From Bryobacterales bacterium (GTDB lineage: Bacteria; Acidobacteriota; Terriglobia; Bryobacterales; Bryobacteraceae), in the NCBI GenBank assembly GCA_009697455.1, contig SHUI01000008.1:1-37822 (forward strand): a DNA stretch of 37,822 nt, read 5' to 3'. A program made the translations under genes and the position numbers. Numbering within the stretch: position 1 is the first letter of the stretch; every line of letters begins with the position of its first letter. The notes beneath the pieces are model-generated. The model saw nothing but the letters and a program-made list of their open reading frames with translations. It was not told where the DNA came from and made no database searches. Shown here one piece after another: positions 13,510 to 29,846 of this stretch.

Positions 13510-16224
13510 ATGAAGCTTGGTCTCCGTGTGGCGCTCGCGCTGGCCGTGGCTAGCCTTCTTCTTGCGCAAGCGCCTGCTGGACCGGTGGATTTCTACAAGA
13601 CCCGCGTACAGCCCCTGTTGGCATCGAAATGCTATGCCTGCCACACTCAGCAGGCACTGGGCGGGCTCCGGCTGGACACCCGCCAATCCGTCGCCAAGGG
13701 CGGCAATTCAGGACCGGCGATCATTTCCGGGCGCGCCGCCGACAGCCTCCTGATTCAGGCCGTGACCCATACGCATCCAAGGATCAAGATGCCTCCGAAC
13801 GGCCGGTTGAGCGATCCCGAGATTCAAGACCTGCGTCTGTGGATTGAGTCCGGCGCGCATTTTGACGCCGCTGAAACGCCCTCCGCCGCGGAAGCCGGCA
13901 TCGCCAAGCGGCGTAGTTTCTGGTCATTTCAGCGCCCACAAAAGTTCGCACCGCCTTCTGTAAAGAACGAATCCTGGGCGCGCACACCCATCGACCGGTT
14001 CGTCCTTGCCGGTCTCGAAGGGAAGGGACTCGCGCCTGCGCCTCCCGCCGGACGAGCCACGCTCCTTCGCAGAGTCACGCTTGATCTCACAGGCCTTCCG
14101 CCCACGCCGGAGCAATACCGCGCTTTCGTCATGGACTCCTCGCCTGATGCATTCGCCAAGATCGTCGACCGCCTGCTCGCGTCCGAACAATACGGCGAAC
14201 GATGGGCTCGCCACTGGCTCGATGTCGCGCGCTACGCCGATGCCGATGGGATCAGTCTGGCGCCGGAACCTTTCGTGAATGCGTGGCGATACCGTGACTG
14301 GGTCATTCAGGCATTCAATTCCGACATGCCGTTCGACCTGTTCGCCAAGGCCCAAATCGCCGGGGACATGTTGGACAAGCCGGGAGAAAAGCGCCTGACG
14401 CCTGGTCTCGGCTATTTGGCGCTCGGCCCCTGGTACTACACGATCGTCGAACCGCCCAAGGCACGCGCCGACGAACTTCAAGACCGGATCGACGTCATCA
14501 CGCGAGGATTACTCGGCCTCACGGTCGCTTGCGCCCGCTGCCACGATCACAAGTACGATCCCATTCCGACCCTGGATTATTACGCTTTGGGCGGCGTCCT
14601 TACTTCGACGGAAGCGAAGGAGGACCCGCTTGCCCCACGAGCCGTAGTCGAATCCTATCGCGCTGCCGAGAAACGGATCAGCGGCCTCGAACAGCAGATC
14701 AAGGAGTTGCTCGACACGGAGCGAAAGCGTCTGGGCGAGAAACTCGCGCGCGATTCCGGACGCTACCTGTTCGCGGCCTGGGAGCGGAGGCGGGCGCCGC
14801 GCGAAGTGGGCCACGGACTCGATCCACGGATTCTCGATCGCTGGTCGGGATATCTCGATCAAACGCACGATCACTCGTTTCTCCGATTTTGGCCCGCCCT
14901 CTCCGCGTCCGGCACCCATGAGAAGGCCGAGGCTGCGGCCCACGATTTCCAACGAACAGTCGACGCGCTGATCGAAGAGCACCGCGACTTGACCGCGTAT
15001 AACGAGCGCGTTATCGAGGCGTCAAAGAAGTCCACCGACCCCTATGACATCTACTGCAAAGGCTGCCGCGCGGAAACGCGATCGCTCACCCGCGACAAGT
15101 ATGTCTTCTGGGGCGATCTGTTCGACGCCAAACGCAAGACGGATGGCGAATCGCGCCCATCCGGCGTCCTCTACTTTGACGATAAGGAAATCCCGCCATA
15201 TCTCGATGCCGCGGCCGGTTTCCGCCTCGAACAACTCCGCAAGGAACTGGACATCGCGAAGGCGGCTCTGCCGGAACGCTATCCTTTCCTGCACGTCTTG
15301 TCCGACATCAGGGAACCGCGCGATATGCCGCTTCATAAACGCGGCGACCCTTACAGCCTGGGCGATCTCGTTCCCCGCCGTTTTCTTTCCGTGCTTGGCG
15401 ATCCCGAGCCCGCGCCGCTCACTACCGGAAGCGGCCGCCTTGATTTGGCCAACCAGATTGCAAGCCCCGCCAATCCGTTGACCGCGCGCGTGATCGTGAA
15501 CCGCATCTGGAGCCAGCACTTCGGCGGGGGCATCGTGCGCAGCCTGAGCAATTTTGGCGCGGCGGGTGACCGCCCCAGCCACCCGGAGTTGCTCGACTAT
15601 CTGGCGGTCCAGTTCATGGAAAACGGCTGGTCCATCAAGACGCTTCAGCGCCAGATCTTACTTTCCTCGGCGTACGCGATGAGCAGCCACGGATCAGCCG
15701 AGGCCTTGGCTGCCGACCCCGATAACCGCCTGCTTTCGCGTTTCAACCGCAGGCGCCTCGATGTCGAGGCGCTGCGCGATTCCATGCTCTTCGTGTCGGG
15801 TCAACTCCAACTCGCCTCGGGCGGGCCGCCCGTTAAGTGGGACAAGGATTTTCGGAAACGAACTATCTATGGAGAAGTGAGCCGCTTTCGGACTGAACGG
15901 TTGCTGACCCTCTTCGATTTCCCGGACCCGTCCATTCACGCCGAGAAGCGTGTCGCCACGAATACGTCCGTTCAGAGGCTCTTTTTTCTTAACAGCGAAT
16001 TCATCAAGAAGCAGTCGTCAAGTCTTGCGGAGCGCATTCGAGCGGGAGCGCCGGGCGGCGTTGAAGAACGAGTGCGCGCCTGCTACGAAACGCTTTTCGG
16101 ACGCCCGCCCGAGCCGCGTGAATTGGCGGCCGCTTTGCGTTTCCTGGCAGACCCCGCCGAAGACGCCTGGCTCGAATTCTCACAAGCGCTTCTCAGCTCG
16201 AACGAGTTCAGTTTCGTGGATTGA
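13510..16224 (+). CDS. PSD1/DUF1549-DUF1553 secreted protein with planctomycete-type cytochrome c motif
   Basis: ATG 13510 gives 904 residues with a signal peptide (MKLGLRVALALAVASLLLAQ); the in-frame GTG 13504 is less likely. Residues 41-45 are CYACH, a c-type heme motif within a PSC1-like domain (FYKTRVQPLLASKCYACH ... GGLRLDTR ... MPPNGRLSD). The PSC2/DUF1549 domain follows (TPIDRFVLAGLEGKGLAPAP, then RRVTLDLTGLPPTPEQYRAF, then YGERWARHWLDVARYADADG), including a second CARCHDHKYDP near residue 340. The last third is PSD1/DUF1553 (ANPLTARVIVNRIWSQHFGGGIV, SNFGAAGDRPSHPELLDYLA, TNTSVQRLFFLNSEF). The family is always paired with DUF1501 genes and has no settled function. Its stop is three bases before the DUF1501 start at 16227. 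Confidence 0.9.
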   Translation: MKLGLRVALALAVASLLLAQAPAGPVDFYKTRVQPLLASKCYACHTQQALGGLRLDTRQSVAKGGNSGPAIISGRAADSLLIQAVTHTHPRIKMPPNGRLSDPEIQDLRLWIESGAHFDAAETPSAAEAGIAKRRSFWSFQRPQKFAPPSVKNESWARTPIDRFVLAGLEGKGLAPAPPAGRATLLRRVTLDLTGLPPTPEQYRAFVMDSSPDAFAKIVDRLLASEQYGERWARHWLDVARYADADGISLAPEPFVNAWRYRDWVIQAFNSDMPFDLFAKAQIAGDMLDKPGEKRLTPGLGYLALGPWYYTIVEPPKARADELQDRIDVITRGLLGLTVACARCHDHKYDPIPTLDYYALGGVLTSTEAKEDPLAPRAVVESYRAAEKRISGLEQQIKELLDTERKRLGEKLARDSGRYLFAAWERRRAPREVGHGLDPRILDRWSGYLDQTHDHSFLRFWPALSASGTHEKAEAAAHDFQRTVDALIEEHRDLTAYNERVIEASKKSTDPYDIYCKGCRAETRSLTRDKYVFWGDLFDAKRKTDGESRPSGVLYFDDKEIPPYLDAAAGFRLEQLRKELDIAKAALPERYPFLHVLSDIREPRDMPLHKRGDPYSLGDLVPRRFLSVLGDPEPAPLTTGSGRLDLANQIASPANPLTARVIVNRIWSQHFGGGIVRSLSNFGAAGDRPSHPELLDYLAVQFMENGWSIKTLQRQILLSSAYAMSSHGSAEALAADPDNRLLSRFNRRRLDVEALRDSMLFVSGQLQLASGGPPVKWDKDFRKRTIYGEVSRFRTERLLTLFDFPDPSIHAEKRVATNTSVQRLFFLNSEFIKKQSSSLAERIRAGAPGGVEERVRACYETLFGRPPEPRELAAALRFLADPAEDAWLEFSQALLSSNEFSFVD

Positions 16225-16226
16225 AC

Positions 16227-17612
16227 ATGCAACCCTTCGTCAAACCCTCCCGCCGCCGACTGCTCGGCAGTCTTGGAGCGGGGTTCGGCCTCCTAGGCCT
16301 CAGAGATCTCTTCGCCTCAACGGTGAATCCCTTTGCGCCCAAAGAGCCGCATTTCGCCCCGAAGGTGAAGCGCGTCATTTTCCTGTTCATGAATGGCGGC
16401 ATGTCCCAGGTGGATACGTGGGACCACAAGCCCATGCTCGACCGCCACCACGGACAGCCCGTGCCCGGCGGCAATCCGCAAACCGAGCGCAAGACCGGCA
16501 ACCTGATGCGTTCGCCATTTGAGTTTCGCCGCTGCGGACAGAGTGGAATCGAAGTCAGCGAAATCTTTCCTGGCATAGGCGATCGCATCGACGACATCTG
16601 CGTCATCCGGTCCATGTACTCCGACATCCCAAACCATGAGCCGTCGCTGCAGATGATGAACTGCGGCGAGAATCTGCAAAGCCGCCCCTCGATGGGATCG
16701 TGGCTTCTCTATGGCCTTGGCACCGAGAATCAGAACCTTCCCGGCTACATCGTCATGTGCCCGGGGATGCCCGTTGTCGGCACTCCGCTGTGGAATTCGA
16801 GCTTTCTGCCCGCCGTCTTTCAGGGTGTCCACATTCCAAACAACGTGAAGGATCCGCTGGAAATGATCCAGTACCTTCGCGACGCCGGCCGCGCGCCCGC
16901 TTCGAAGCGCCGCGAACTGGACCTGCTCGCCGAACTGAACCGCTTCCATGCTGAAACCCGCCGTGAAGACACGCAGCTTGAGGCCGCGATTGAGTCCATG
17001 GAAGTCGCCTTCCGCATGCAGACTGAAGCGCCGGAAGCGTTCGACATCGCACGAGAGCCCGAGGCTACGCGTGCCCGCTATGGCGATTCCGATTTCGGCC
17101 GCGGCTGCCTGCACGCGCTGCGACTCGCGGAGCGTGGAGTTCGCATGGTACAACTTTACTTCGGCAACGGACAGCCCTGGGATAACCACGACGACATTAT
17201 GATTCACAAGAGGCTTGCGGGTCAGGTAGACAAGCCCGTGGCCGCGCTGCTCGACGACTTGAAATCGCGCGGCCTGTTCAAAGACACGCTCGTCATCTTC
17301 GGCAGCGAGTTCGGACGCACGCCTTCGGTTGAAACCAGTTCCCGCGTCAAGGTGCAGAATGGCCGTGATCACAACCCATTCGGTTTCTCAGTCTGGCTCG
17401 CCGGCGGCGGAATCAAAGGCGGCACTGCCTACGGCGCAACCGACGACTTCGGCTTCAAGGCGGAACAGAACCGCGTGCATGTCCACGACCTCCACGCGAC
17501 GGTGCTTCATCTTCTGGGGCTCGATCACACGCGCCTGACCTACGCCTACAGCGGCCGCGAGTTCCGGCTGACGGACGTCCACGGCAAGGTAATTCGCGAG
17601 ATCTTGAGTTAG
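16227..17612 (+). CDS. DUF1501 protein (sulfatase-like fold), Tat-exported
   Basis: ATG 16227 gives 461 residues starting MQPFVKPSRRRLLGSLGAG, a twin-arginine signal (SRRRLLG). TTG 16221 overlaps the previous stop and is less likely. Typical DUF1501 blocks are present: VKRVIFLFMNGGMSQVDTWD, EVSEIFPGIGDRIDDICVIRSM, GRGCLHALRLAERGVRMVQL, TLVIFGSEFGRTP, GRDHNPFGFSVWLAGGGIKGG and VHDLHATVLHLLGLDH. These correspond to the alkaline-phosphatase/sulfatase superfamily metal site, but a catalytic Ser/Cys cannot be assigned. It is translationally linked to the PSD1 gene; the two products probably form one cell-envelope complex. The stop is TAG. Confidence 0.9.
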   Translation: MQPFVKPSRRRLLGSLGAGFGLLGLRDLFASTVNPFAPKEPHFAPKVKRVIFLFMNGGMSQVDTWDHKPMLDRHHGQPVPGGNPQTERKTGNLMRSPFEFRRCGQSGIEVSEIFPGIGDRIDDICVIRSMYSDIPNHEPSLQMMNCGENLQSRPSMGSWLLYGLGTENQNLPGYIVMCPGMPVVGTPLWNSSFLPAVFQGVHIPNNVKDPLEMIQYLRDAGRAPASKRRELDLLAELNRFHAETRREDTQLEAAIESMEVAFRMQTEAPEAFDIAREPEATRARYGDSDFGRGCLHALRLAERGVRMVQLYFGNGQPWDNHDDIMIHKRLAGQVDKPVAALLDDLKSRGLFKDTLVIFGSEFGRTPSVETSSRVKVQNGRDHNPFGFSVWLAGGGIKGGTAYGATDDFGFKAEQNRVHVHDLHATVLHLLGLDHTRLTYAYSGREFRLTDVHGKVIREILS

Positions 17613-17625
17613 AGGAAACGCAGCC

Positions 17626-18654
17626 ATGAGTGAAACCCAGATTCACACCGATATCGACTTCAGCCAGCCGCACGGCAAACAGTGCGGCCACCTGGCGATT
17701 CCCTATTCGCACAATCTGGGCGGATGGGCCAATCTGCGAATCCCACTTTGTTTGATCCGCGGCGGCCCGGGTCCAGCCGTTCTCCTGATGGCGGGCAATC
17801 ATGGCGACGAGTATCCCGGGCAGGTCGCGATTCTCAAGTTGTGGCGTGAATTGACCCCGGAAGACGTGATGGGTACGCTGATTCTCATCCCGTGCCTTAA
17901 TCCGCCTGCGTCGAAAGCAGCCACGCGCCTTTCGCCGCTCGACGGGCGCAATTTCAACCGCTGCTTTCCGGGCAATCCAAACGGCACGGTGAGCGAGATG
18001 CTGGCGCATTACCTCTCGACGGTCCTGTTTCCGATGGCAGAGTACGTAATCGACCTGCATACCGGCGGGCGGAGCATGGGCTTTCTCCCGTGCGCGCACA
18101 TGCACTTGGTGCCAGACCTGACGCAGAGGGCGCGGATGCTGGCTGCCACGGAGGCTTTCCTCACCGAAACGGCTTTTCTCTACGCCGACGTAGCGGGCGC
18201 GGGGTTGCTGCCGACCGATGCGGAACGCCAGGGCAAGATCGTGATCACGACGGAGATGGGCGGGGGCGAAACAGTTCCCGCTGCTATTCACCGCCAATGC
18301 CAGGCGGGCTTGCACAACGTGCTGATCCATTGCGGCGTGCTTCGTGGCAAGGAGAAAACGCGCGCGGAGGCGGGTCTCGGGCCCGCGCGCTGGGTGCAGG
18401 CGCTTGACCGCGCTGACTACCGCTTCGCTCCCGAGTCGGGGTTGTACGAGAATTGCGTGGAACTGGGCGAGCCGATCAGGAAAGGCGATCTACTCGGCCA
18501 GGTCCACTTCATCGAGCAGCCGGACCGCGAACCAATTCGCGTCGAGGCTCATGCGGATGGCTTAGTCGTTGCGAATCGAGGGCCGTCGATGGTGGGGCAG
18601 GGAGACTGCGTCGCCTGCGTCGCGCACGACGTTGACCCGCGCGAGTTACCGTGA
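17626..18654 (+). CDS. AstE/AspA-family zinc deacylase (succinylglutamate desuccinylase/aspartoacylase-like)
   Basis: The 342-residue cytosolic protein has the zinc-carboxypeptidase-like signature AGNHGDEYPGQ (His59, Glu62), the substrate-binding GRNFNRCFPG (Arg108-Asn109) and the third zinc ligand in VIDLHTGGRS (His145). The C-terminal beta domain (YENCVELGEPIRKGDLLGQVHF, then HADGLVVANRGPSMVGQGD) resembles the biotinyl-like tail common in the ectoine-degradation DoeB branch. It would remove an acyl group from an N-acylated amino acid or diamine; the substrate cannot be told. AGAGG just after the DUF1501 stop is a plausible ribosome-binding site, and a 13-bp gap implies co-transcription with the DUF1501 gene. 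The start ATG 17626 is well supported. Confidence 0.85.
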   Translation: MSETQIHTDIDFSQPHGKQCGHLAIPYSHNLGGWANLRIPLCLIRGGPGPAVLLMAGNHGDEYPGQVAILKLWRELTPEDVMGTLILIPCLNPPASKAATRLSPLDGRNFNRCFPGNPNGTVSEMLAHYLSTVLFPMAEYVIDLHTGGRSMGFLPCAHMHLVPDLTQRARMLAATEAFLTETAFLYADVAGAGLLPTDAERQGKIVITTEMGGGETVPAAIHRQCQAGLHNVLIHCGVLRGKEKTRAEAGLGPARWVQALDRADYRFAPESGLYENCVELGEPIRKGDLLGQVHFIEQPDREPIRVEAHADGLVVANRGPSMVGQGDCVACVAHDVDPRELP

Positions 18655-19240: not shown

Positions 19241-19405
19241 ATTTCGATGATCATGTCCCAGCTTGACCGGCCGCTTCTCCCCAGGCTCTCCTTGCGTGAG
19301 AAACCGGCCTTTCCTCCAGGCGCATCTTCCTTGAGACAATTCTGGCGGTTGCAATTAAAGTCCGTATCGGAGACACTGATAGGTTTTCGGCGTCTCGAGC
19401 ATTTC

Positions 19406-20362
19406 ATGCGGATACGAGTCTTCTACCACGATCACTGTTTCGACGGCGCCGCCTCGGCCGCGTTCTTTAGCCGTTTCATTGAAGGCGCCTACCATCCCGG
19501 TGCCGAGTTCGTTTTTACCGGCTTGGCTCATAAGGCGTCGCAACTGTTCGAGGACGAACTCTTTGACGGCGACGTGAACGCCATCGTCGACTTTAAATAT
19601 TCGAATAACCCCAGGCTCACCTGGTGGTTTGATCACCACCAGAGCGCGTTCCTGACCCGGGAAGACGCGGAGCATTTCCGCCGCGATACAAGCGGGCGCA
19701 AGTTGTATGACCCGAGTTTCAAGTCGTGCACGCTATTCATCAGTAAAGTCGCGCAACAGAAGTTCGGGTTCGAGGCTCCCGATCTCGCGGATCTTGTAAA
19801 ATGGGCCAACATTATTGACGGGGCCCAGTATGCGGACGCAAAAACCGCGGTTGAGCTTGGCGCGCCGGCCATGAAACTGACGCTGGTTATCGAAGGTTCA
19901 AAGGGATCTGACACCGTTCTGAAGATCATCCGCTGGATGCGCCACGAACCGCTCGACGCGATCATCGCGAAGCCGGAAATCCAAGCGCTTTATGAGCCAC
20001 TCTACCAGCGTCACCTGGCGTCGATCGGCATTATCAAAGAGCGCGCGACAATGGAGGGGGGCGTGATTTTCTTCGATCTCATTGGATGCGATATCGAGGG
20101 ATACAACAAATTCATTCCCTATTACCTGTTTCCGGACAGCACCTACACGGTGTCGGTCAGCGCGTCAAGTTTCCGGACGAAAATCTCGGTGGGGTCAAAC
20201 CCCTGGCCGCCCGTCGAGCCAGTGCACAACCTTGCGTCGATCTGCGAGCGCTACGGGGGCGGCGGTCACGCAAGAGTGGGCGCAATCAGTCTCGAGCCCA
20301 ACGAAGTTGAGAAGGCGCGGTCGGTAGCGGCGGAGATTGCGGCGGAATTGCGACGTTCGTAA
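19406..20362 (+). CDS. DHH/DHHA1-type phosphoesterase
   Basis: ATG 19406 (MRIRVFYHDHCFDGAASAAF) is chosen because the domain starts there; the frame is open upstream to 19247 but that stretch is not domain-like. The 318-residue protein has the N-terminal metal motif HDHCFDG (residues 8-14), IVDFKYS, the name-giving FDHH motif (residues 75-78) and, near residue 285, the DHHA1-type GGGGHARVGAISL loop. DHH proteins hydrolyse phosphodiesters such as nanoRNA or cyclic dinucleotides. This one lacks CBS or GGDEF domains, and its substrate is not predictable. The neighbour on the right is convergent. No clear ribosome-binding site precedes the start. Confidence 0.85.
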   Translation: MRIRVFYHDHCFDGAASAAFFSRFIEGAYHPGAEFVFTGLAHKASQLFEDELFDGDVNAIVDFKYSNNPRLTWWFDHHQSAFLTREDAEHFRRDTSGRKLYDPSFKSCTLFISKVAQQKFGFEAPDLADLVKWANIIDGAQYADAKTAVELGAPAMKLTLVIEGSKGSDTVLKIIRWMRHEPLDAIIAKPEIQALYEPLYQRHLASIGIIKERATMEGGVIFFDLIGCDIEGYNKFIPYYLFPDSTYTVSVSASSFRTKISVGSNPWPPVEPVHNLASICERYGGGGHARVGAISLEPNEVEKARSVAAEIAAELRRS

Positions 20363-21460: not shown

Positions 21461-22294
21461 ATGGCACAATACGAGAAGATGATCGAACACCTTCGCCCGG
21501 GCGCCTCGGCTGAGCGCGCCCGGGTCGTTCTTTTCGACTTTGACGGCACAATTTCCCTGATTCGCTCCGGCTGGATGGAAGTGATGGTCCCCATGATGGT
21601 GGACCTTCTTCTCGAAACCAAGACCGGTGAAAGCGAAGCGGATTTACGCGCCATCGTCGAAGAGTTTGTCGGACAACTCACCGGCAAGCAGACCATGTAT
21701 CAGATGATCGAACTAGCGGACCAGATACGGTCGCGCGGCGGCACTCCGCTCGAACCGCTGGTATACAAGACCATGTATCTCGACCGCCTGCATGAAAAGA
21801 TCAAAGACCGCCTCGACGATCTGGAATCGGGACGCGTTTCGAAGGAACATTATATGGTTCCGGGGGCGCGGGCGTTGCTCGAAGCGCTGCGGGCACGCCG
21901 TTTGAAGCTCTACCTCGCGAGCGGCACGGACCACGTTTACATGAAGCGCGAGGCGGACCTGCTCGACGTCTCACAATACTTCGACGGCGGCGTCTATGGC
22001 GCTCTCGACGACTACAAGAGCTTCTCGAAGAAGATTCTCGTGCAGCAGGTGATCGCGAAGTCGGAATGCCGCGGCGAGGAGTTTCTCGGCTTTGGCGACG
22101 GCTACGTCGAAATCGAAAACGTGAAAGAAGTGGGGGGCATTGCCGTCGGCGTGGCAACCGAGGAGCCCGATTGCCTGAAGGTCGACGAATGGAAACGAAA
22201 GCGGCTTGCCGGAGTGGGAGCGGACTTTATTATTCCCCATTTTGGCTGCCACGATGAGCTAATTCAGGCGCTTTTTCCGCGCAATGGGCAGTAA
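21461..22294 (+). CDS. HAD-superfamily phosphatase
   Basis: This 277-residue protein has the HAD motif I VVLFDFDGTISLI (Asp26, Asp28), a helical cap (residues about 40-130), motif II in LYLASGTDHVYM, a likely motif III lysine in DDYKSFSKK, and motif IV in FLGFGDGYVEIENVKEVGG. It should hydrolyse a small phosphorylated metabolite, likely a sugar phosphate given its neighbours. It is first in a four-gene operon and overlaps the next gene by 11 bp. ATG 21461 is only 29 bp from the divergent parA start; ATG 21479 is an alternative that would leave more promoter space. Confidence 0.85.
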   Translation: MAQYEKMIEHLRPGASAERARVVLFDFDGTISLIRSGWMEVMVPMMVDLLLETKTGESEADLRAIVEEFVGQLTGKQTMYQMIELADQIRSRGGTPLEPLVYKTMYLDRLHEKIKDRLDDLESGRVSKEHYMVPGARALLEALRARRLKLYLASGTDHVYMKREADLLDVSQYFDGGVYGALDDYKSFSKKILVQQVIAKSECRGEEFLGFGDGYVEIENVKEVGGIAVGVATEEPDCLKVDEWKRKRLAGVGADFIIPHFGCHDELIQALFPRNGQ

Positions 22295-23252
22295 ATACGA
22301 AACGTTCGACCGCTCGCGGCTGCTGATAAAGCCTCTTGCCGAACGAACGCACGACTTGCAACTCGATCGCTGGCTCGCGCTCGACGATCCAACCCCGGCC
22401 TTCGAGCATCCTCAATTGACGGATCTGGCGCGGCGTCTCGGCGGCGCACGCGAGCATGGCGCGGCGCGGATTCTCATGATGGGCGCCCACGTGTTGCGCG
22501 CGGGCATCAACAGGCACCTCATCGATCTGCTGGAGCGCGGCGTCATCGCGCACCTCGCGATGAACGGCGCGGGTGCGATTCACGATTACGAAATCGCGCG
22601 CATTGGGGCCACCACAGAAAGTGTCGCGCGCTACATCAAGAGCGGCGAATTCGGGCTGTGGCGCGAAACGGGCGAACTCAACGATTGGATTCACCAGGCC
22701 GCGGATCTGTCGCTTGGGCTTGGAGAGAACGTGGGACGCCGCATCGAGGAGAGCGATTTCCCGTACCGGGACTTGAGCGTGTTCGCCGCCGCCTACCGGC
22801 TGGGCGTGCCCGTGACGGTGCACGTTGGCGTCGGCTACGACATCCTCCACGAGCATCCGAACTGCGACGGCGCGGCGCTCGGAGCGGCGAGCTACCGCGA
22901 TTTCCTCATCTTCGCCCGCGGCGTCGAGAATCTGGAGGGAGGCGTGATGCTCAGCTTCGGCTCTGCCATCATGGCTCCGGAAGTGTATCTGAAGGCGCTT
23001 GCCATGTCTCGCAATGTCGCCCACCAGGAGGGCCGCGAAATCCGCCGGTTCACGACAGCCGTTTTCGATGTCGTGCCCATCGCCGGCGATATTCACCACG
23101 AGCTGCCGAAGTCCGACCCGGGCTATTACTTCCGCCCCCACAAGACCATCCTCGCGCGCACCGTAGCCGACGGCGGGGAGAGCTATTACTTTTGCGGCGA
23201 TCATCGCGCCACGCTTCCCGCGCTACGGAAGGCGATGCTCGAACTGGCATGA
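22284..23252 (+). CDS. Deoxyhypusine-synthase-like (DHS family) protein
   Basis: This 322-residue protein looks like the bacterial branch of the DHS fold (NAD-dependent Rossmann-like). The signs are ILMMGAHVLRAGINRHLIDLL, AHLAMNGAGAIHDYEIARIG, VTVHVGVGYDILHEHP, then NCDGAALGAASYRDFLIF and GGVMLSFGSAIMAPEVYLKA. True DHS carries a catalytic Lys in a 'KVYADA(T/S)' motif near the C-terminus. Here the corresponding stretch appears to be SYYFCGDHRATLPAL, without that Lys, so aminobutyl transfer is doubtful. Bacteria lack the eIF5A substrate, and some DHS relatives make homospermidine. Its place between a HAD phosphatase and two sugar kinases suggests a sugar-related substrate. The start overlaps the HAD gene by 11 bp and the end overlaps PfkB in an ATGA. 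Confidence 0.78.
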   Translation: MGSKYETFDRSRLLIKPLAERTHDLQLDRWLALDDPTPAFEHPQLTDLARRLGGAREHGAARILMMGAHVLRAGINRHLIDLLERGVIAHLAMNGAGAIHDYEIARIGATTESVARYIKSGEFGLWRETGELNDWIHQAADLSLGLGENVGRRIEESDFPYRDLSVFAAAYRLGVPVTVHVGVGYDILHEHPNCDGAALGAASYRDFLIFARGVENLEGGVMLSFGSAIMAPEVYLKALAMSRNVAHQEGREIRRFTTAVFDVVPIAGDIHHELPKSDPGYYFRPHKTILARTVADGGESYYFCGDHRATLPALRKAMLELA

Positions 23253-24226
23253 CGGCGGCCGCGATCCTCTCCGCGATTCCGAAGCTTTCCGCGCTTGTGG
23301 TGGGCGATATTTGTCTCGACCGCTGGTGCACATACGATCCTTCGGAAGCCGAACCCTCGCGTGAGACGGGCATTCCGCGCATCGCCGTTACCGCGGTCGA
23401 AGTAACGCCCGGCGCGGGTGGCACGGTTGCAAGCAATCTTGCGGCGCTCGGCGCGTCGCGGGTGGCTGTGCTCGGTGCGGCCGGAGACGACGGCTTCGGA
23501 TATGAGCTGGAGCGCGCTCTGGCGGCTCGCGGGATCTCCGCGGAACTGCTCGTAAAAGCGCCCGGAATGCGGACCTTCACGTACACAAAGGTCATCAACG
23601 GCCTAACCGGCGGCGAAGACTGCCCGCGCCTGGACTTCATCAATAACGTTCCGCTCGCGCCGGCGGTGGAGCGCCGGCTTCTCGATCGCTTGCAATCGGC
23701 AGTGGAACAGTTCGACGTGATTCTGGTTTCCGATCAAGCCGAGACCGGCCGTGGCGGAGTGATTACGCCGGCCATTCGCGATCTGCTCGCGGACCTGGCC
23801 GCGGCTTACCGCGAGAAAGTCTTCTTTGCCGACTCGCGCAGCCGCATGGAACTGTTCCGCGGCGTCATCGTAAAGGGAAACGAACAAGAGGCAGGTGAGG
23901 CGTGCGCGAGGATCGGCGCCGCGGACGCACAAGCTCTGTTTGAGACGCTTGGAGCGCCGCTTCTCATCGTCACGCGCGGGCCTAAAGGGGTCTCGCTTCA
24001 CGAACGGTTAGGAGAAGTGTGGGTCGCTGCGAGCCCGGTGGAGCATCCGGTCGATATCTGTGGGGCGGGCGACAGCTTTTCGGCGGGTGCCGCGCTGGCT
24101 TTGGCCGCGGGTGCGAACCCTCTGCACTCGGCGCGCTTCGGAAACCTGATCGCGTCCATCACGATCATGAAGAAGGGTACGGGTACCGCTTCTCCGGAGG
24201 AAGTCCTTGCGAACGCTTGCGATTGA
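23249..24226 (+). CDS. PfkB-family sugar kinase (RfaE1/HldE kinase-like)
   Basis: ATG 23249 overlaps the DHS-like stop (ATGA); a longer open frame back to 22658 is only a shadow of that gene. The 325-residue product opens like the kinase half of RfaE/HldE: LSALVVGDICLDRWCTYDPSEAEPSRETGIP, then PGAGGTVASNLAALGASRVAVLGAAGDDGFG. The PfkB signature DICGAGDSFSAGAALAL near residue 268 contains the catalytic Asp. FADSRSRMELFRGVIVKGNEQEA fits the 'D.R.....Y.G...ITPN..E' region. RfaE1 phosphorylates heptose 7-phosphate at C1. No nucleotidyltransferase domain is fused here, so the acceptor could be another sugar phosphate. It overlaps the ROK gene by 20 bp. Confidence 0.85.
   Translation: MTAAAILSAIPKLSALVVGDICLDRWCTYDPSEAEPSRETGIPRIAVTAVEVTPGAGGTVASNLAALGASRVAVLGAAGDDGFGYELERALAARGISAELLVKAPGMRTFTYTKVINGLTGGEDCPRLDFINNVPLAPAVERRLLDRLQSAVEQFDVILVSDQAETGRGGVITPAIRDLLADLAAAYREKVFFADSRSRMELFRGVIVKGNEQEAGEACARIGAADAQALFETLGAPLLIVTRGPKGVSLHERLGEVWVAASPVEHPVDICGAGDSFSAGAALALAAGANPLHSARFGNLIASITIMKKGTGTASPEEVLANACD
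24196..24200 (+). promoter_or_regulatory. Ribosome-binding site fixing a TTG start
   Basis: GGAGG lies six bases before TTG 24207, inside the end of the PfkB gene. It supports TTG as the start of the ROK gene, since the family motif begins at once after it. Confidence 0.7.
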
Positions 24227-25055
24227 CATCGGCGGGTCTAAGTTCTCGATGGCCGTATTCGAAGGCGGCCGAATGGCGCGCCGCGAAAGCCGCGAAACCG
24301 ACAAGGAAGGCGGCCGGGAGTGGATGTTAAAGCAAATCATTCCCTTGGCACGCGCGTGGCGGGACGAAGCCGCGTTCGACCGCTGCGGGATAGGATTCGG
24401 CGGCCCGGTGCGGTATCCGGAGCAGCGGATCGCGCTTTCGACGCACGTCGGCGGCTGGCGGGACTTCCCGCTCGCGGCATACGTCGAGAAAAATCTCGGT
24501 GTCCCGGCCATCATGGACAACGACGCGAATGTGGGCGCGCTTGGCGAAGGATTCCATGGAGCCGGGAAGTCCCTATCTCCTTTCTTCTACATGACCCTTT
24601 CGACGGGAATTGGTGGAGGCATTCTCGATAACGGAGCGATTTGGCGCGGAGCGGACTCCTATGGCGGCGAGATCGGTCATCTCACCATCCGTCCCGATGG
24701 CCCTGAGTGCCTCTGCGGGGCGCGAGGATGCTTCGAGCGGATGTGCTCCGGGCTTTGGCTTGAGCGCGACTACGGCAAGCCCGCGAAGGAGTTGCTTGAA
24801 GATCCGGCGTTCGTGGATCGGTACGTGGTGGATCTCGCCCTTGGTCTTAAGGCGTGTATCATGTTGTTGAATCCGGCACGAATCGCCGTAGGCGGCGGCA
24901 TTGGAAAGGCGGGCGAGCGCTTGTTCGTCCCTCTACGGGCCGAGCTTCGGCGACAGATTACGGCGTGGTCCGGCGCGCGCATTGATGTGGTACCCGCCGC
25001 TCTTGGCGACGACAGCGTGCTCTGGGGCGCGCTTGCGCTTGCGGAAGCGTTGTGA
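24207..25055 (+). CDS. ROK-family sugar kinase
   Basis: TTG 24207, preceded by GGAGG, starts RTLAIDIGGSKFSMAVFEGG, the N-terminal ATP-binding phosphate loop of ROK kinases. Later blocks are GIGFGGPVRYPEQRIALSTH, the catalytic PAIMDNDANVGALGEG (Asp in DND), YMTLSTGIGGGILDNG, and the zinc-binding EIGHLTIRPDGPECLCGARG followed by CFE (ROK pattern H...C.CG..GC.E). No helix-turn-helix precedes it, so it is a kinase rather than a repressor. At 282 residues it is a bit short of the usual ~300. It closes the four-gene operon; HAD, DHS-like, PfkB and ROK genes all overlap. Substrates are probably hexoses or amino sugars. Confidence 0.87.
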   Translation: MRTLAIDIGGSKFSMAVFEGGRMARRESRETDKEGGREWMLKQIIPLARAWRDEAAFDRCGIGFGGPVRYPEQRIALSTHVGGWRDFPLAAYVEKNLGVPAIMDNDANVGALGEGFHGAGKSLSPFFYMTLSTGIGGGILDNGAIWRGADSYGGEIGHLTIRPDGPECLCGARGCFERMCSGLWLERDYGKPAKELLEDPAFVDRYVVDLALGLKACIMLLNPARIAVGGGIGKAGERLFVPLRAELRRQITAWSGARIDVVPAALGDDSVLWGALALAEAL

Positions 25056-25426: not shown

Positions 25427-26812
25427 TCAGCTCAAGGCCGCGCGGATCAACTGCCCGTGGACGTCCGTCAGCCGGAAGTCCCTGCCGCCGAACCGGAACG
25501 TCAGCCGCTCGTGATCCACTCCGAGCAGGTGCAGAACGGTGGCGTGCAGATCGTGTATGGTGAACGGACTCTCCACGGTTCGATATCCGTATTCGTCCGT
25601 CGCGCCGATGATGCTTCCGCCCTTCACCCCGCCGCCCGCCAGCCACAGACTGAAGCCGTATGGATTGTGGTCGCGCCCGTCCTTGCCCTGAGCGAAAGGC
25701 GCGCGCCCGAACTCGCCGGACCATATCACCAGCGTCTTTTCGAACAGGCCGCGCGCCTTCAGATCTTTGATGAGGCCCGCAATAGGCTGGTCCACGTGGA
25801 ACGCATTCGCCTCGTGCCCTTCCTTGAGTTTGTCGTGCTGATCCCACGAATTGCCGCCGCCCAATCCCTTTGGCGGAACGATGGTCAACTCCACGAATCG
25901 AACGCCGCGTTCAATCAGCCGCCGCGCCATCAGGCACTGCCGCGCATAGGCGGCTTTGCCGGCATTGTCCGAATCGAGCCCGTAGAGTTTCTTCGTCGCG
26001 TCGCTCTCGCCGCGCAGGTCCACCAACTCCGGCACGGCTGCCTGCATGCGGTAGGCAATCTCGTAGTTGCGAATCGCCGCGTCCACTTGCGTGTCGCGGC
26101 CGGTCGATTCCAGAAACTCACGGTCCAACTTGCCGATAAACCCCAACCGCCGCCGCTGTTTCTCGTCCGTCTCTTTCGGGGTCACGTTTTCGAGCGGCTC
26201 GCCGCGCTCCGGGTAGAGGAACGATCCCTGATGGATAGCCGGCAGAAAGCCGTTTCCAAACACGTTGATGCCCCCGAGCGGGATCTCGCCGCTACCCAGC
26301 ACTACGTATCCTGGCAGGTTCTTTGACGGACTACCCAGCCCGTAGGTGATCCACGCGCCCATGCTGGGAAAGCCCGCGAACGGCTGCCCCGAGTGATAGT
26401 AGAAATTCGCCTGCGCGTGCTCCATGAACTTCACCGTCATCGAGCGGATGACGCATAGATCGTCCACGCAGGAGCCCATATGGGGAAACAGCGCGCTGAC
26501 GGGGATGCCGCTCTGGCCGTAGTTCTTGAACTCCCACGGGCTCGGAAAAATCGCCCCGTTCTGGTTGAACATCGTGCGGTCGACCGGCACCGGCATAGGC
26601 TGCCCGGCCTCTTTGGCCAGACGCGGCTTCGGGTCGAACGAATCGATGTGCGATACGCCGCCCGACATGAAGCAGAAGATCACGTGCTCAATTTTCGGCG
26701 CGTGATGCGGCTTTCCTTCCTGAGCAAGGAGACTGGAGAATGCCATGTTCCCGAAGCCCATGGACGCGGTCGCAAGCAACTCCCGCCGCGACAAAAACCT
26801 CCTACCGGACAT
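25427..26812 (-). CDS. DUF1501 protein (sulfatase-like fold), Tat-exported (second copy)
   Basis: The 461-residue protein begins MSGRRFLSRRELLATASMGF, a twin-arginine signal (SRRELL). It has the DUF1501 blocks IEHVIFCFMSGGVSHIDSFD, SALFPHMGSCVDDLCVIRSM, ARQCLMARRLIERGVRFVEL, TLVIWSGEFGRAP, GRDHNPYGFSLWLAGGGVKG and IHDLHATVLHLLGVDH. It is the same length as the copy at 16227, but the two differ throughout, so they are not a recent duplication. It overlaps the upstream PSD1 gene by 11 bp and must be co-expressed with it. Both 'GEFGR' and 'DHNP' metal-site-like motifs are kept. Confidence 0.9.
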   Translation of the reverse strand: MSGRRFLSRRELLATASMGFGNMAFSSLLAQEGKPHHAPKIEHVIFCFMSGGVSHIDSFDPKPRLAKEAGQPMPVPVDRTMFNQNGAIFPSPWEFKNYGQSGIPVSALFPHMGSCVDDLCVIRSMTVKFMEHAQANFYYHSGQPFAGFPSMGAWITYGLGSPSKNLPGYVVLGSGEIPLGGINVFGNGFLPAIHQGSFLYPERGEPLENVTPKETDEKQRRRLGFIGKLDREFLESTGRDTQVDAAIRNYEIAYRMQAAVPELVDLRGESDATKKLYGLDSDNAGKAAYARQCLMARRLIERGVRFVELTIVPPKGLGGGNSWDQHDKLKEGHEANAFHVDQPIAGLIKDLKARGLFEKTLVIWSGEFGRAPFAQGKDGRDHNPYGFSLWLAGGGVKGGSIIGATDEYGYRTVESPFTIHDLHATVLHLLGVDHERLTFRFGGRDFRLTDVHGQLIRAALS

Positions 26813-29723
26813 ACAGGAACTCCTTCAGGCTGAAAATCGCCTGCGCCAGATCGCCGCGGTTTGACCCGGCGAGCCCAGACGCAGCGAGGTAAGACGCAGC
26901 TTCATCCCGCTCCCGCGTCGTAGCCTTGCGCCCAAGGGCGCGGAGAAACATCGCATCCACGTCCTCTCCGCGCTCTCCCCATTTCGCCGCCTGCTCGATC
27001 ACGAACGCGCTGTTCATCAGGGCGAGCGATTGCGCGGGCACATTTGTTACGTCCCGCTGGCCGCGCGTCGTGGAAGGCTTGGGGGCGTCGAAGACTTCGA
27101 GAAATGGATTCGTGGCGTTGCGGCGGATCTCGAGATACAACGTGCGACGCCTGTTCCCGTCAAGCGGTCCCTTCGGTTTGTCGCCCTTGGTCTTGCCCGT
27201 TTCGTGGGAGTAGTAAACCGGCACGGATGGACCGTACATCGCGGGATCGAGTTGCCCCGAAACGGCGAGAATCGCGTCGCGAATTTCTTCGGCTTCCAGG
27301 CGCCGCATGGGCATCTCTTCGCTTGCCGCCATGCGGTAGGCGCGGGAAGTAGCAAGCATTCGCACGAGCTTCTTGATCGACCACCCGTCGTCCACGAACC
27401 GCGCGGCGAGCCAATCGAGCAGTTCCGGGTCCGAGGGCCGTTCTCCCAGTTTTCCAAAGTTATCCACGGTCCGCACTATTCCTTTGCGGAACAGGTTTTG
27501 CCAGATGCGGTTCACCATCACACGCGCCGTCAACGGATTTGCCGGGCTCGCGACTTCATCGGCCAGCCGCAGCCGCATATGCGCGGGGTCCGTGTATGGA
27601 TGGCTGCCGAGCGCGGTCAAGTACCGGCGCGGCACGGGATCCCCGGGTCTCTTGAAGTCCCCGCGAACAAGAAGCGCCTGATCGCCGCCCGCTTCTTCGA
27701 GCACCCCCGGAGCTCGGCGCGGAACGGGAACCTCTCTCTCGAGTCTTCGGTACTCCGCCAGGAGCGCCGCCACCCCCTGTACGGATTCCTCGTTGTTGGG
27801 AAGCGCTCCGTCGCGCACCAGATGATCGAGCAGCGCCGCCTGTTCATCCGACGCGCGCCCAAACCGCCAGGCTTCAACGGCCTGCGCAACGGTCGTGCTG
27901 GCCACGCGGGGCTCTGCTTTCGGCGTCGCTTCGTCATTGTGAAACACAACCTCCCGCGCGCCGAACCACGACCGTCCATTGCGAAGCGGTTTCGCGTCCT
28001 TCCCGTCGGCCTGGAAATGGGTAACGTCATCCATGGTCGCGAACTCGATATAGCCGGTGAAGCCTTTCCAGAACTTCGCATCCCAGCGAAACCAGTCGAG
28101 CGAGTCCTTCTTGGGGCTGAAACGGAGGTTGTAAATTCCGCCCCGAGGCACGGCGTAATTCTCGATGATGAGCTGCGCAAAGCTGAAATTTGCGCCTGCC
28201 ATCCGCACGCTGATGAAGTCCGTATCGATCTTGAATCGCGGTGAAGTCGCAACGCCGCTGTGCTTGCTTGAAAGCAGATGCGTGTAGACGGCGGCGGGAT
28301 AGAGACCGCCGATGACGCGCTTGCCTTCGGTTTCAACGGCAAATTCGCCAGGCGCGGAAGGCCCCTGGGCGAGACCTGCGCCGTGTACCCGCCAGTTCTT
28401 CCACTCCGCCGCCAGATCCCATCCGCCGCGAACGCTCGAAGCGGCGAATTTCCAATCGGGCGCGGCCGTTGTTCTTGCGGCGTTCGCCCAGGCTGACGCG
28501 AGACGTTCTTTGATCTGCCCTTTTAAGCGGGCGAGTTCCGCCCTGTTGGTGTTCAGATAGGCGTCGTCGTCGATGGCGGTCTGCGTGGGCCGCGCGTTCG
28601 CGAAGATGCCGAAGAGCGCGTAGAAATCGTTCTGGCTGATGGCGTCGAACTTGTGGTCGTGACAGCGCGCGCAGGAAACCGTCAGTCCCTGGAAAGCCTT
28701 GGAGAAAACGTCGATCTGATTGTCCGTCCACTTGATGCGGTCTTCCCATGGATCCACGGGCTGAAATCCGTGCTCGACCATGCGAAGGTTGGCGACGCCA
28801 ATTCTGGATTCATTGATGTGCTCGGCGGCATTGATGCGGGGCTTCGGGAGTAGGTCGCCCGCAAGGTGCTCGCGGATTAGCTGGTCGTACGGAAGGTCCG
28901 TGTTGAAAGCGCGGACCAGATAGTCGCGATAGCGCCAGGCCTCTGGAATGTCGGGGTCTCCCTCGCTCCCGTGAGATTCGGCGAAGCGCACCAGATCCAT
29001 CCACCGGCGCGCCCAGCGCTCCCCGAAACGCGGTGAGGCAAGGAGACGATCCACCACGCTCTCATAGGCGCCACTTTCCCGCGCATCGCTTTCAAACGCG
29101 GTGATCTCCGCTGGCGTGGGCGGCATTCCAGTAAGGTCGAAGGTAACCCGGCGAAGCCAGGCCGAACGCGTGGCCGGAGCGGCGGGCATCGCCCCTCGAG
29201 ATTCCATGCGAGCAAGAACAAAGACATCGGTGGGTTGAAGGGGCCAACGGGCGTCGCGAACCGCTGGCGGCTTTACCGGGCGCACGGGCTGCCACGCCCA
29301 ATGCTCGCGCTTGCGCTCTTCCAGGTTGAAAGCCGACAGCGTGGCTGGCGCCGTTTCCTCCGGCCACGGCGCGCCCATCTCGACCCACTTCGCAAGCGCC
29401 GAGATTTGATCCTCTCCCAGTTTGCCCGAGGGCGGCATCTGCTTGGGAAGTTCGCCCCGCAGCGCCCGTATCAGTTTACTCTCCGAGGGCCGTCCGTTCA
29501 CGACAACCGGTCCGGCATCACTGCCCTTGATAACGCCGTCGCGGCTGTCGAGACGTAATCCAGCAAACGCCGCTTTCACGCGGCTGCTGTGACAGGCATA
29601 GCAGTGCCGGGCGAGAACTGGCCGTACCTGCCGCTCAAAGAAATCGACCTGCTCGGCGGTCGGATCCGCGACGAGAATCCCGCCTGCCGAAAGCGTCAGC
29701 GCCATCAACCACGACGATTGCAT
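26802..29723 (-). CDS. PSD1/DUF1549-DUF1553 secreted protein with an extra inserted domain (second copy)
   Basis: ATG 29723 (MQSSWLMALTLSAGGILVAD) gives 973 residues and a signal peptide; GAGAGG lies four bases upstream. The frame is open to 29846, but those 41 residues are Cys-rich and unlike the family. Visible are the heme motif HCYACH, LRLDSRDGVIKGSDAG, the DUF1549 block (RRVTFDLTGMPPTPAEI; FGERWARRWMDLVRFAES) with CARCHDHKFD, and the DUF1553 block (ANPLTARVMVNRIWQNLFRK; DNFGKLGERPSDPELLDWLA; VTNVPAQSLALMNSAFV). Between the halves sits a ~160-residue beta-rich segment (WKNWRVHGAGLAQG ... FKIDTDFISVRMAGANFSFA ... WKGFTGYIEFATMDD). It resembles a lectin- or CBM-like sandwich and is absent from the 13510 copy. 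Confidence 0.9.
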   Translation of the reverse strand: MQSSWLMALTLSAGGILVADPTAEQVDFFERQVRPVLARHCYACHSSRVKAAFAGLRLDSRDGVIKGSDAGPVVVNGRPSESKLIRALRGELPKQMPPSGKLGEDQISALAKWVEMGAPWPEETAPATLSAFNLEERKREHWAWQPVRPVKPPAVRDARWPLQPTDVFVLARMESRGAMPAAPATRSAWLRRVTFDLTGMPPTPAEITAFESDARESGAYESVVDRLLASPRFGERWARRWMDLVRFAESHGSEGDPDIPEAWRYRDYLVRAFNTDLPYDQLIREHLAGDLLPKPRINAAEHINESRIGVANLRMVEHGFQPVDPWEDRIKWTDNQIDVFSKAFQGLTVSCARCHDHKFDAISQNDFYALFGIFANARPTQTAIDDDAYLNTNRAELARLKGQIKERLASAWANAARTTAAPDWKFAASSVRGGWDLAAEWKNWRVHGAGLAQGPSAPGEFAVETEGKRVIGGLYPAAVYTHLLSSKHSGVATSPRFKIDTDFISVRMAGANFSFAQLIIENYAVPRGGIYNLRFSPKKDSLDWFRWDAKFWKGFTGYIEFATMDDVTHFQADGKDAKPLRNGRSWFGAREVVFHNDEATPKAEPRVASTTVAQAVEAWRFGRASDEQAALLDHLVRDGALPNNEESVQGVAALLAEYRRLEREVPVPRRAPGVLEEAGGDQALLVRGDFKRPGDPVPRRYLTALGSHPYTDPAHMRLRLADEVASPANPLTARVMVNRIWQNLFRKGIVRTVDNFGKLGERPSDPELLDWLAARFVDDGWSIKKLVRMLATSRAYRMAASEEMPMRRLEAEEIRDAILAVSGQLDPAMYGPSVPVYYSHETGKTKGDKPKGPLDGNRRRTLYLEIRRNATNPFLEVFDAPKPSTTRGQRDVTNVPAQSLALMNSAFVIEQAAKWGERGEDVDAMFLRALGRKATTRERDEAASYLAASGLAGSNRGDLAQAIFSLKEFLYVR

Positions 29724-29846
29724 CGAACCTCTCGCGGCCATGCGTGCCGCCAAATCATGACAAGCGGCTTCAGAATACGACTGCCGGATCATGCAGCCTT
29801 CGTACTTGCCGTCGCACGGTCCGCACCATTGCGCTTCAAAACTCAC

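Follow-up and report, generated by a model that had tools for sequence, protein, structure and literature searches.

A conserved Acidobacteria operon joining a GSU2086-family protein of deoxyhypusine synthase fold to heptose-type sugar enzymes: a proposed sugar-phosphate module

A four-gene operon on a 37,822-nucleotide contig of a Bryobacterales bacterium (GenBank assembly GCA_009697455.1, contig SHUI01000008.1; the whole stretch is referred to below as the window) is real and widely conserved. It encodes a HAD-superfamily phosphatase, a protein resembling deoxyhypusine synthase (DHS), a PfkB-family kinase and a ROK-family sugar kinase. We read it as a divergent module for heptose phosphates (NDP-heptose-type) whose DHS-fold member would epimerise or isomerise a sugar phosphate by NAD-dependent internal redox chemistry, a combined interpretation that we consider evenly balanced between right and wrong. 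Its assignment to a heptose-type module is well supported, while we infer the reaction and product, along with the substrate, the order of steps, the dependence on NAD, the epimerisation chemistry and what the ROK kinase does.

The outer membranes of many Gram-negative bacteria contain heptose as a core sugar, and ADP-heptose is also established as a signal of bacterial origin. Where a genome carries GmhA and HldE but not HldD, a gap is left unexplained; the mutual exclusion described here names a candidate gene for it, making the question testable with one purified enzyme. The most valuable outcome of this analysis is a testable proposal, namely that the GSU2086 family may supply sugar epimerases built on the DHS fold.

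The operon, its conservation and its heptose-type enzymes

A sequence-only reading of the window had described four overlapping, tightly packed genes, and this is borne out: all four open reading frames (ORFs) are intact and, read from the sequence, successive genes overlap by 11 bp, 4 bp (ATGA) and 20 bp (Table 1). Motifs of the partner enzymes are also intact, including DFDGT in the HAD protein, GAGD in the PfkB kinase, and DIGG together with the zinc motif CLCGARGC in the ROK kinase.

Table 1. Features of the operon in the window.
Feature	Position	Strand	Supporting evidence
HAD-superfamily phosphatase, 277 aa	21461..22294	+	PF00702, 49.6 bits
GSU2086-family DHS-like protein, clade A, 322 aa	22284..23252	+	NF052581, 383.4 bits
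PfkB-family kinase, 325 aa, closest to HldE/RfaE domain I	23249..24226	+	Pfam 1e-30; TIGR02198, 144.7 bits
ROK-family sugar kinase, 282 aa, TTG start	24207..25055	+	PF00480, 180 bits, 8e-53
GGAGG, likely ribosome-binding site of the ROK TTG start	24196..24200	+	sequence reading; six bases upstream

Upstream of the operon, the window contains a DUF1501 gene (16221-17612), an AstE/AspA-type deacylase (17626-18654; 286 bits to the DoeB model of ectoine degradation, under its cut-off of 402.7) and an ORF of 371 aa whose sole match, to DHHA1, is weak (19247-20362), followed by a ParA-like gene; the neighbourhood of these last two is kept in locus L233, from the same genus, and in L002. Downstream, a second ORF resembling DUF1501 (25427-26812) lies beside a large PSD1-like ORF (26802-29846), a pair judged by eye.

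With the DHS-like protein as query, 80 loci were retrieved, nearly all of them from Bryobacterales or related Acidobacteria. The DHS-like gene is immediately preceded by an HAD gene in 76 of the 80 and immediately followed by a PfkB gene in 78 of 79 testable loci; a ROK gene is found downstream in 53/76, and an SIS gene within the same gene run in 37/73. The genes are associated far more often than chance would allow, and the HAD and PfkB counts refute the possibility, raised in the sequence-only reading, that they are rarely adjacent in relatives. Its picture of a four-family operon needs partial revision: the HAD, DHS-like and PfkB genes stand as a core, and ROK does not stand as a fixed member. 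The core comprises HAD, DHS-like, PfkB and SIS genes, with ROK as an optional member, and the usual fifth gene of the operon is a GmhA-like SIS isomerase, unlinked in the window genome.

The HAD-DHS-PfkB order also occurs in other Acidobacteriota families and on a Chloroflexota plasmid, where it is followed by SIS. A Solidesulfovibrio plasmid (L155) and genome G005 (L177) combine a DHS-like gene of clade A (the window type) with an SIS gene and a nucleotidyltransferase-PfkB fusion, in glycan clusters that also hold a two-part transketolase. The plasmid collection contains two clade-A records and no clade B member, and no member of the GSU2086 family was found in phages.

The window genome has its SIS gene next to dapF on contig C158, and contig C198 carries a stand-alone HldE-type (rfaE-domain-II) nucleotidyltransferase (TIGR02199, 179.2 bits, just under the cut-off of 181.5). 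The steps that had seemed to be missing are therefore not missing: the earlier statement that no isomerase or nucleotidyltransferase is present holds for the operon in the window but not for the genome. Likeness of the PfkB protein to the RfaE1 heptose kinase, also noted at that stage, is confirmed by its proximity to RfaE/HldE domain I, and among PDB entries a heptose-7-phosphate kinase (4e84) comes nearest to it. Genes of glycosyltransferase family 9, the family of heptosyltransferases, are present as well.

Matches to the models that define the classical enzymes nevertheless stay below their cut-offs. The best GmhA score in the window genome is 124 bits (TIGR00441, cut-off 209), the PfkB kinase falls short of the 345 bits of the HldE kinase model (TIGR02198), and HldD (TIGR02197, cut-off 274.6) was found neither in the window genome (74% complete; best score 129 bits) nor in G261, a genome of the same genus that is 96% complete. 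We therefore think the system best described as a divergent NDP-heptose-type biosynthesis, outside the ADP-heptose pathway in its defined form.

In alignment with GmhA of E. coli, SIS proteins of the operon replace E65 by D and Q172 by E in 43/44 sequences, carry mostly G or N at R69 and mostly G at T120, and retain H180, N93, D94 and S55. These active-site swaps hold in all three phyla seen and indicate another substrate or stereochemistry than that of GmhA; judged by these residues, the SIS partner is not GmhA.

Clades of the GSU2086 family and their relation to GmhA and HldD

The family tree separates clade A from clade B, and a third, longer type, clade C, has a C-terminus unlike either (examples are L224, 6445-8538; L226, 6297-8425; and L228). 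Clade C genes are convergent with, and directly adjoin, HldD in seven genomes (G217, G219, G231, G247, G260, G268 and G279), and several clade C genomes have SIS and PfkB homologues close together elsewhere. Clade B loci often contain gmhA, hldE, gmhB or waaF-like genes, as in the gmhB-B-hldE-gmhA cluster of G176. The Geobacter gene GSU2086 is flanked by hldE (GSU2085) and gmhA (GSU2087), and electrode growth suffers to a similar degree from insertions in GSU2085, GSU2086 and GSU2087 (-3.1, -3.2 and -3.7; PMC5585712).

In Bryobacterales, clade B adjoins uvrA, often with mtnA on its other side (the set comprising L241, L242, L245, L246, L247, L142 and L184), and this uvrA neighbourhood recurs in another Acidobacteriota family. 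A further gene family lies near or next to HldD in L248 (G055:C94), L240 (G114:C9), L249 (G181:C24) and L254 (G228:C198); its G055 member is a low-scoring match to PF01916 (DHS family), and its presence near HldD in several families suggests that DHS-fold genes recur around heptose genes.

Counted within Acidobacteriota only, and with statistics that ignore phylogeny, 61 of 199 genomes carry a GSU2086 member, 50 carry HldD and two carry both; since these two have clade A only, the overlap between clade B and HldD is 0/199. Among Acidobacteriota genomes with a strong GmhA match, the GSU2086 family and HldD likewise show no overlap and occur in 47 and 46 genomes, and among 90 Bryobacterales (clades assigned by match length and sequence-checked on a subset) clade B occurs in 53, HldD in 13 and both in none. 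Swaps within genera are the stronger argument, because the co-occurrence p-values ignore phylogeny: both states are found inside genera g126, g127, g128 and g133, and inside g41 of another family. An in-place exchange of HldD for clade B was not found at these loci, where the flanks differ and clade B stands beside uvrA/mtnA in Bryobacterales.

A second pattern involves GmhA. Of the 60 genomes with clade A or C and the 17 with strong GmhA, two belong to both groups (p 3e-7, uncorrected for phylogeny), and clades A and C never share a genome among the 90 Bryobacterales. Clade A is found together with clade B in 27 of these 90, and with neither clade B nor HldD in 20, mostly of one family. The idea that clade A itself replaces HldD was rejected, since clade A occurs with HldD (G024, G050, G221, G272 and G274) and with clade B. 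These distributions suggest two modules, one opposing GmhA to clade A or C plus the SIS variant, the other opposing HldD to clade B; clade B, a sister group of the window clade, apparently takes the place of HldD, the classical heptose epimerase. Literature searches returned no paper joining deoxyhypusine synthase with heptose and, on HldD loss in Geobacter, nothing relevant by title or abstract.

The apparent substitution for GmhA also bears on whether the operon might serve salvage or catabolism, in which case a rare sugar, once imported, would be phosphorylated by ROK, converted by SIS together with the DHS-fold enzyme, and made by PfkB into a bisphosphate for cleavage. Neither this substitution nor the nucleotidyltransferase-PfkB fusions of L155 and L177 fit such a route well, an HAD phosphatase is a core member, and aldolases and transporters are not regular parts of the Acidobacteria operons. 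Some probability nonetheless attaches to salvage from the catabolic surroundings of the Chloroflexota homologue (an ABC sugar importer, Gfo/Idh and deoC) and of L152 (LarA, xylose-isomerase-like and Gfo/Idh genes), and two kinases within one operon, an MFS-type symporter after the operon in G024 and G050, and a PFK gene in L135 would agree with it; on balance we think it unlikely.

Family, fold and conserved residues of the DHS-like protein

The DHS-like protein is a full-length member of NF052581, the 'GSU2086 family protein' (residues 8-316, cut-off 250), a family already catalogued by NCBI without an assigned function. It falls in no Pfam family above cut-off, PF01916 matched it neither in the Pfam scan nor in the whole-genome scan, and a PDB sequence search gave no credible relative. 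Its AlphaFold2 model (pLDDT 95.8) comes closest to the C-terminal ornithine cyclodeaminase domain of AgrE/ArgZ (Z about 20, ~220 residues, 16-19% identity), followed by LOR/SDH (Z 19) and by DHS, which matches with a Z of about 18 and an rmsd of 3.8 A across 251 residues at ~11% identity, and hhalign aligns its profile to DHS with 97.5% probability over 276 columns.

The sequence-only reading had pointed to the Lys of 'KVYADA', which needs correcting: this is not the catalytic residue of DHS, the catalytic Lys being that of the SWGK motif. The profile alignment pairs NGAGAIHD of the window protein with the segment TGANLYHD of DHS and R292 with the SWGK Lys, with low confidence at the C-terminus; the proposed comparison at the catalytic position thus finds an Arg and no preserved Lys, at that level of confidence. 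R292 is near-invariant, being Arg in every sequence that covers the position in a set of 85 family members, throughout which H69, H100, D101, E103, D186, E233 and K237 are invariant. About 20 polar residues, including D262, are invariant or nearly so across clades that are 35-47% identical.

Conservation of this kind would indicate catalysis, and the exclusion between clade B and HldD suggests the same type of reaction; both argue against a protein that acts as a dehydrogenase with net turnover of NAD(P), or that regulates or scaffolds heptose enzymes without catalysing a reaction. We consider that quite unlikely, although gene neighbourhood alone cannot separate an enzyme from a partner protein. 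A very unlikely alternative is amine transfer, by which the protein would create a C-N bond with the sugar and yield an amino-heptose: its fold, its remote homology to DHS/homospermidine synthase and the invariant K237 would accord with this, but R292 aligns to the catalytic Lys position, the operon has no polyamine or aminotransferase genes, and the enzyme with which clade B alternates among genomes, HldD, epimerises its substrate rather than aminating it. The sugar-amine conjugate suggested earlier is not supported, given the same aligned Arg, the lack of a polyamine gene with the operon, and a separate DHS-family gene of the window genome, located on contig C50 by the whole-genome PF01916 scan; a polyamine conjugate was rejected because its partner genes are absent from the operon.

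That an ordinary deoxyhypusine or homospermidine synthase sits by chance inside a sugar operon is barely conceivable and was rejected, distant similarity being all that favours it against the lack of a PF01916 match, 383 bits to NF052581, strict operon conservation and the C50 gene. The claim of a DHS-fold protein that is not DHS is upheld by NF052581 membership and the same lack of a PF01916 match; as far as its sequence tells, it is neither a deoxyhypusine nor a homospermidine synthase.

A proposed route and its place among known systems

DHS and the NAD-binding ornithine cyclodeaminase domain of AgrE use NAD+ and return the hydride within the same reaction, with no net redox change, which fits the need of an epimerase. 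In the heptose-type module that we propose, the SIS isomerase would turn a ketose phosphate, probably one of seven carbons, into the corresponding aldose phosphate, and the GSU2086 protein, with tightly held NAD+, would produce an epimerised or isomerised sugar phosphate by transient oxidation and re-reduction. The PfkB protein may act as an anomeric kinase, phosphorylating C1, after which the HAD phosphatase would remove the distal phosphate of the sugar bisphosphate and a separate or fused HldE-type nucleotidyltransferase would activate the sugar for a surface glycan; where present, ROK could feed the route by phosphorylating free sugar. The undescribed phosphorylated-sugar route envisaged from the sequence is supported.

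The module reading draws on a PfkB kinase nearest HldE domain I and a fifth gene homologous to GmhA; on Geobacter GSU2086, whose mutants resemble those of its two neighbours, hldE and gmhA; on clade A in the L155 and L177 glycan clusters; and on the clade B/HldD exclusion, the substitution of clades A and C for GmhA, the SIS residue swaps and the fold shared with DHS and AgrE. Counting against it are the 20 clade A genomes without clade B or HldD, the catabolic surroundings in Chloroflexota and L152, p-values that ignore phylogeny, the location of clade B away from the HldD locus, the adjoining of clade C to HldD, and the ROK kinase, for which we know of no counterpart in known heptose biosynthesis.

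More tentatively, and with somewhat greater expectation of being wrong than right, we suggest that the GSU2086 family represents a class of sugar epimerases not recognised before, NAD-dependent and built on the DHS fold, in which clade B would replace HldD in bacteria resembling Geobacter and in many Acidobacteria that make heptose but have no HldD, and clades A and C, together with the active-site-swapped SIS, would replace GmhA through a two-step route to heptose phosphate. If true, the DHS/ornithine-cyclodeaminase fold, known for amine chemistry, would reach into sugar chemistry, and the electrode-growth phenotype of Geobacter GSU2086 mutants would gain a biochemical basis.

Within NF052581, the window protein belongs to clade A, apart from the gmhA/hldE-linked clade B. 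With DHS and homospermidine synthase it shares the fold and the TGANLYHD-like segment, but differs in the Arg that aligns with the catalytic Lys position and in its gene partners. The ArgZ/AgrE ornithine cyclodeaminase domain and LOR/SDH are its best structural matches, yet the operon contains no arginine-related genes. Set against ADP-heptose biosynthesis (GmhA, HldE, GmhB and HldD), the window proteins all score below the family cut-offs, the SIS active site differs, the HAD phosphatase is not GmhB, and HldD is lacking while a DHS-fold protein and ROK are added; what the window genome shares with that pathway is a GmhA-superfamily isomerase, an HldE-like kinase, an HAD phosphatase and a nucleotidyltransferase.
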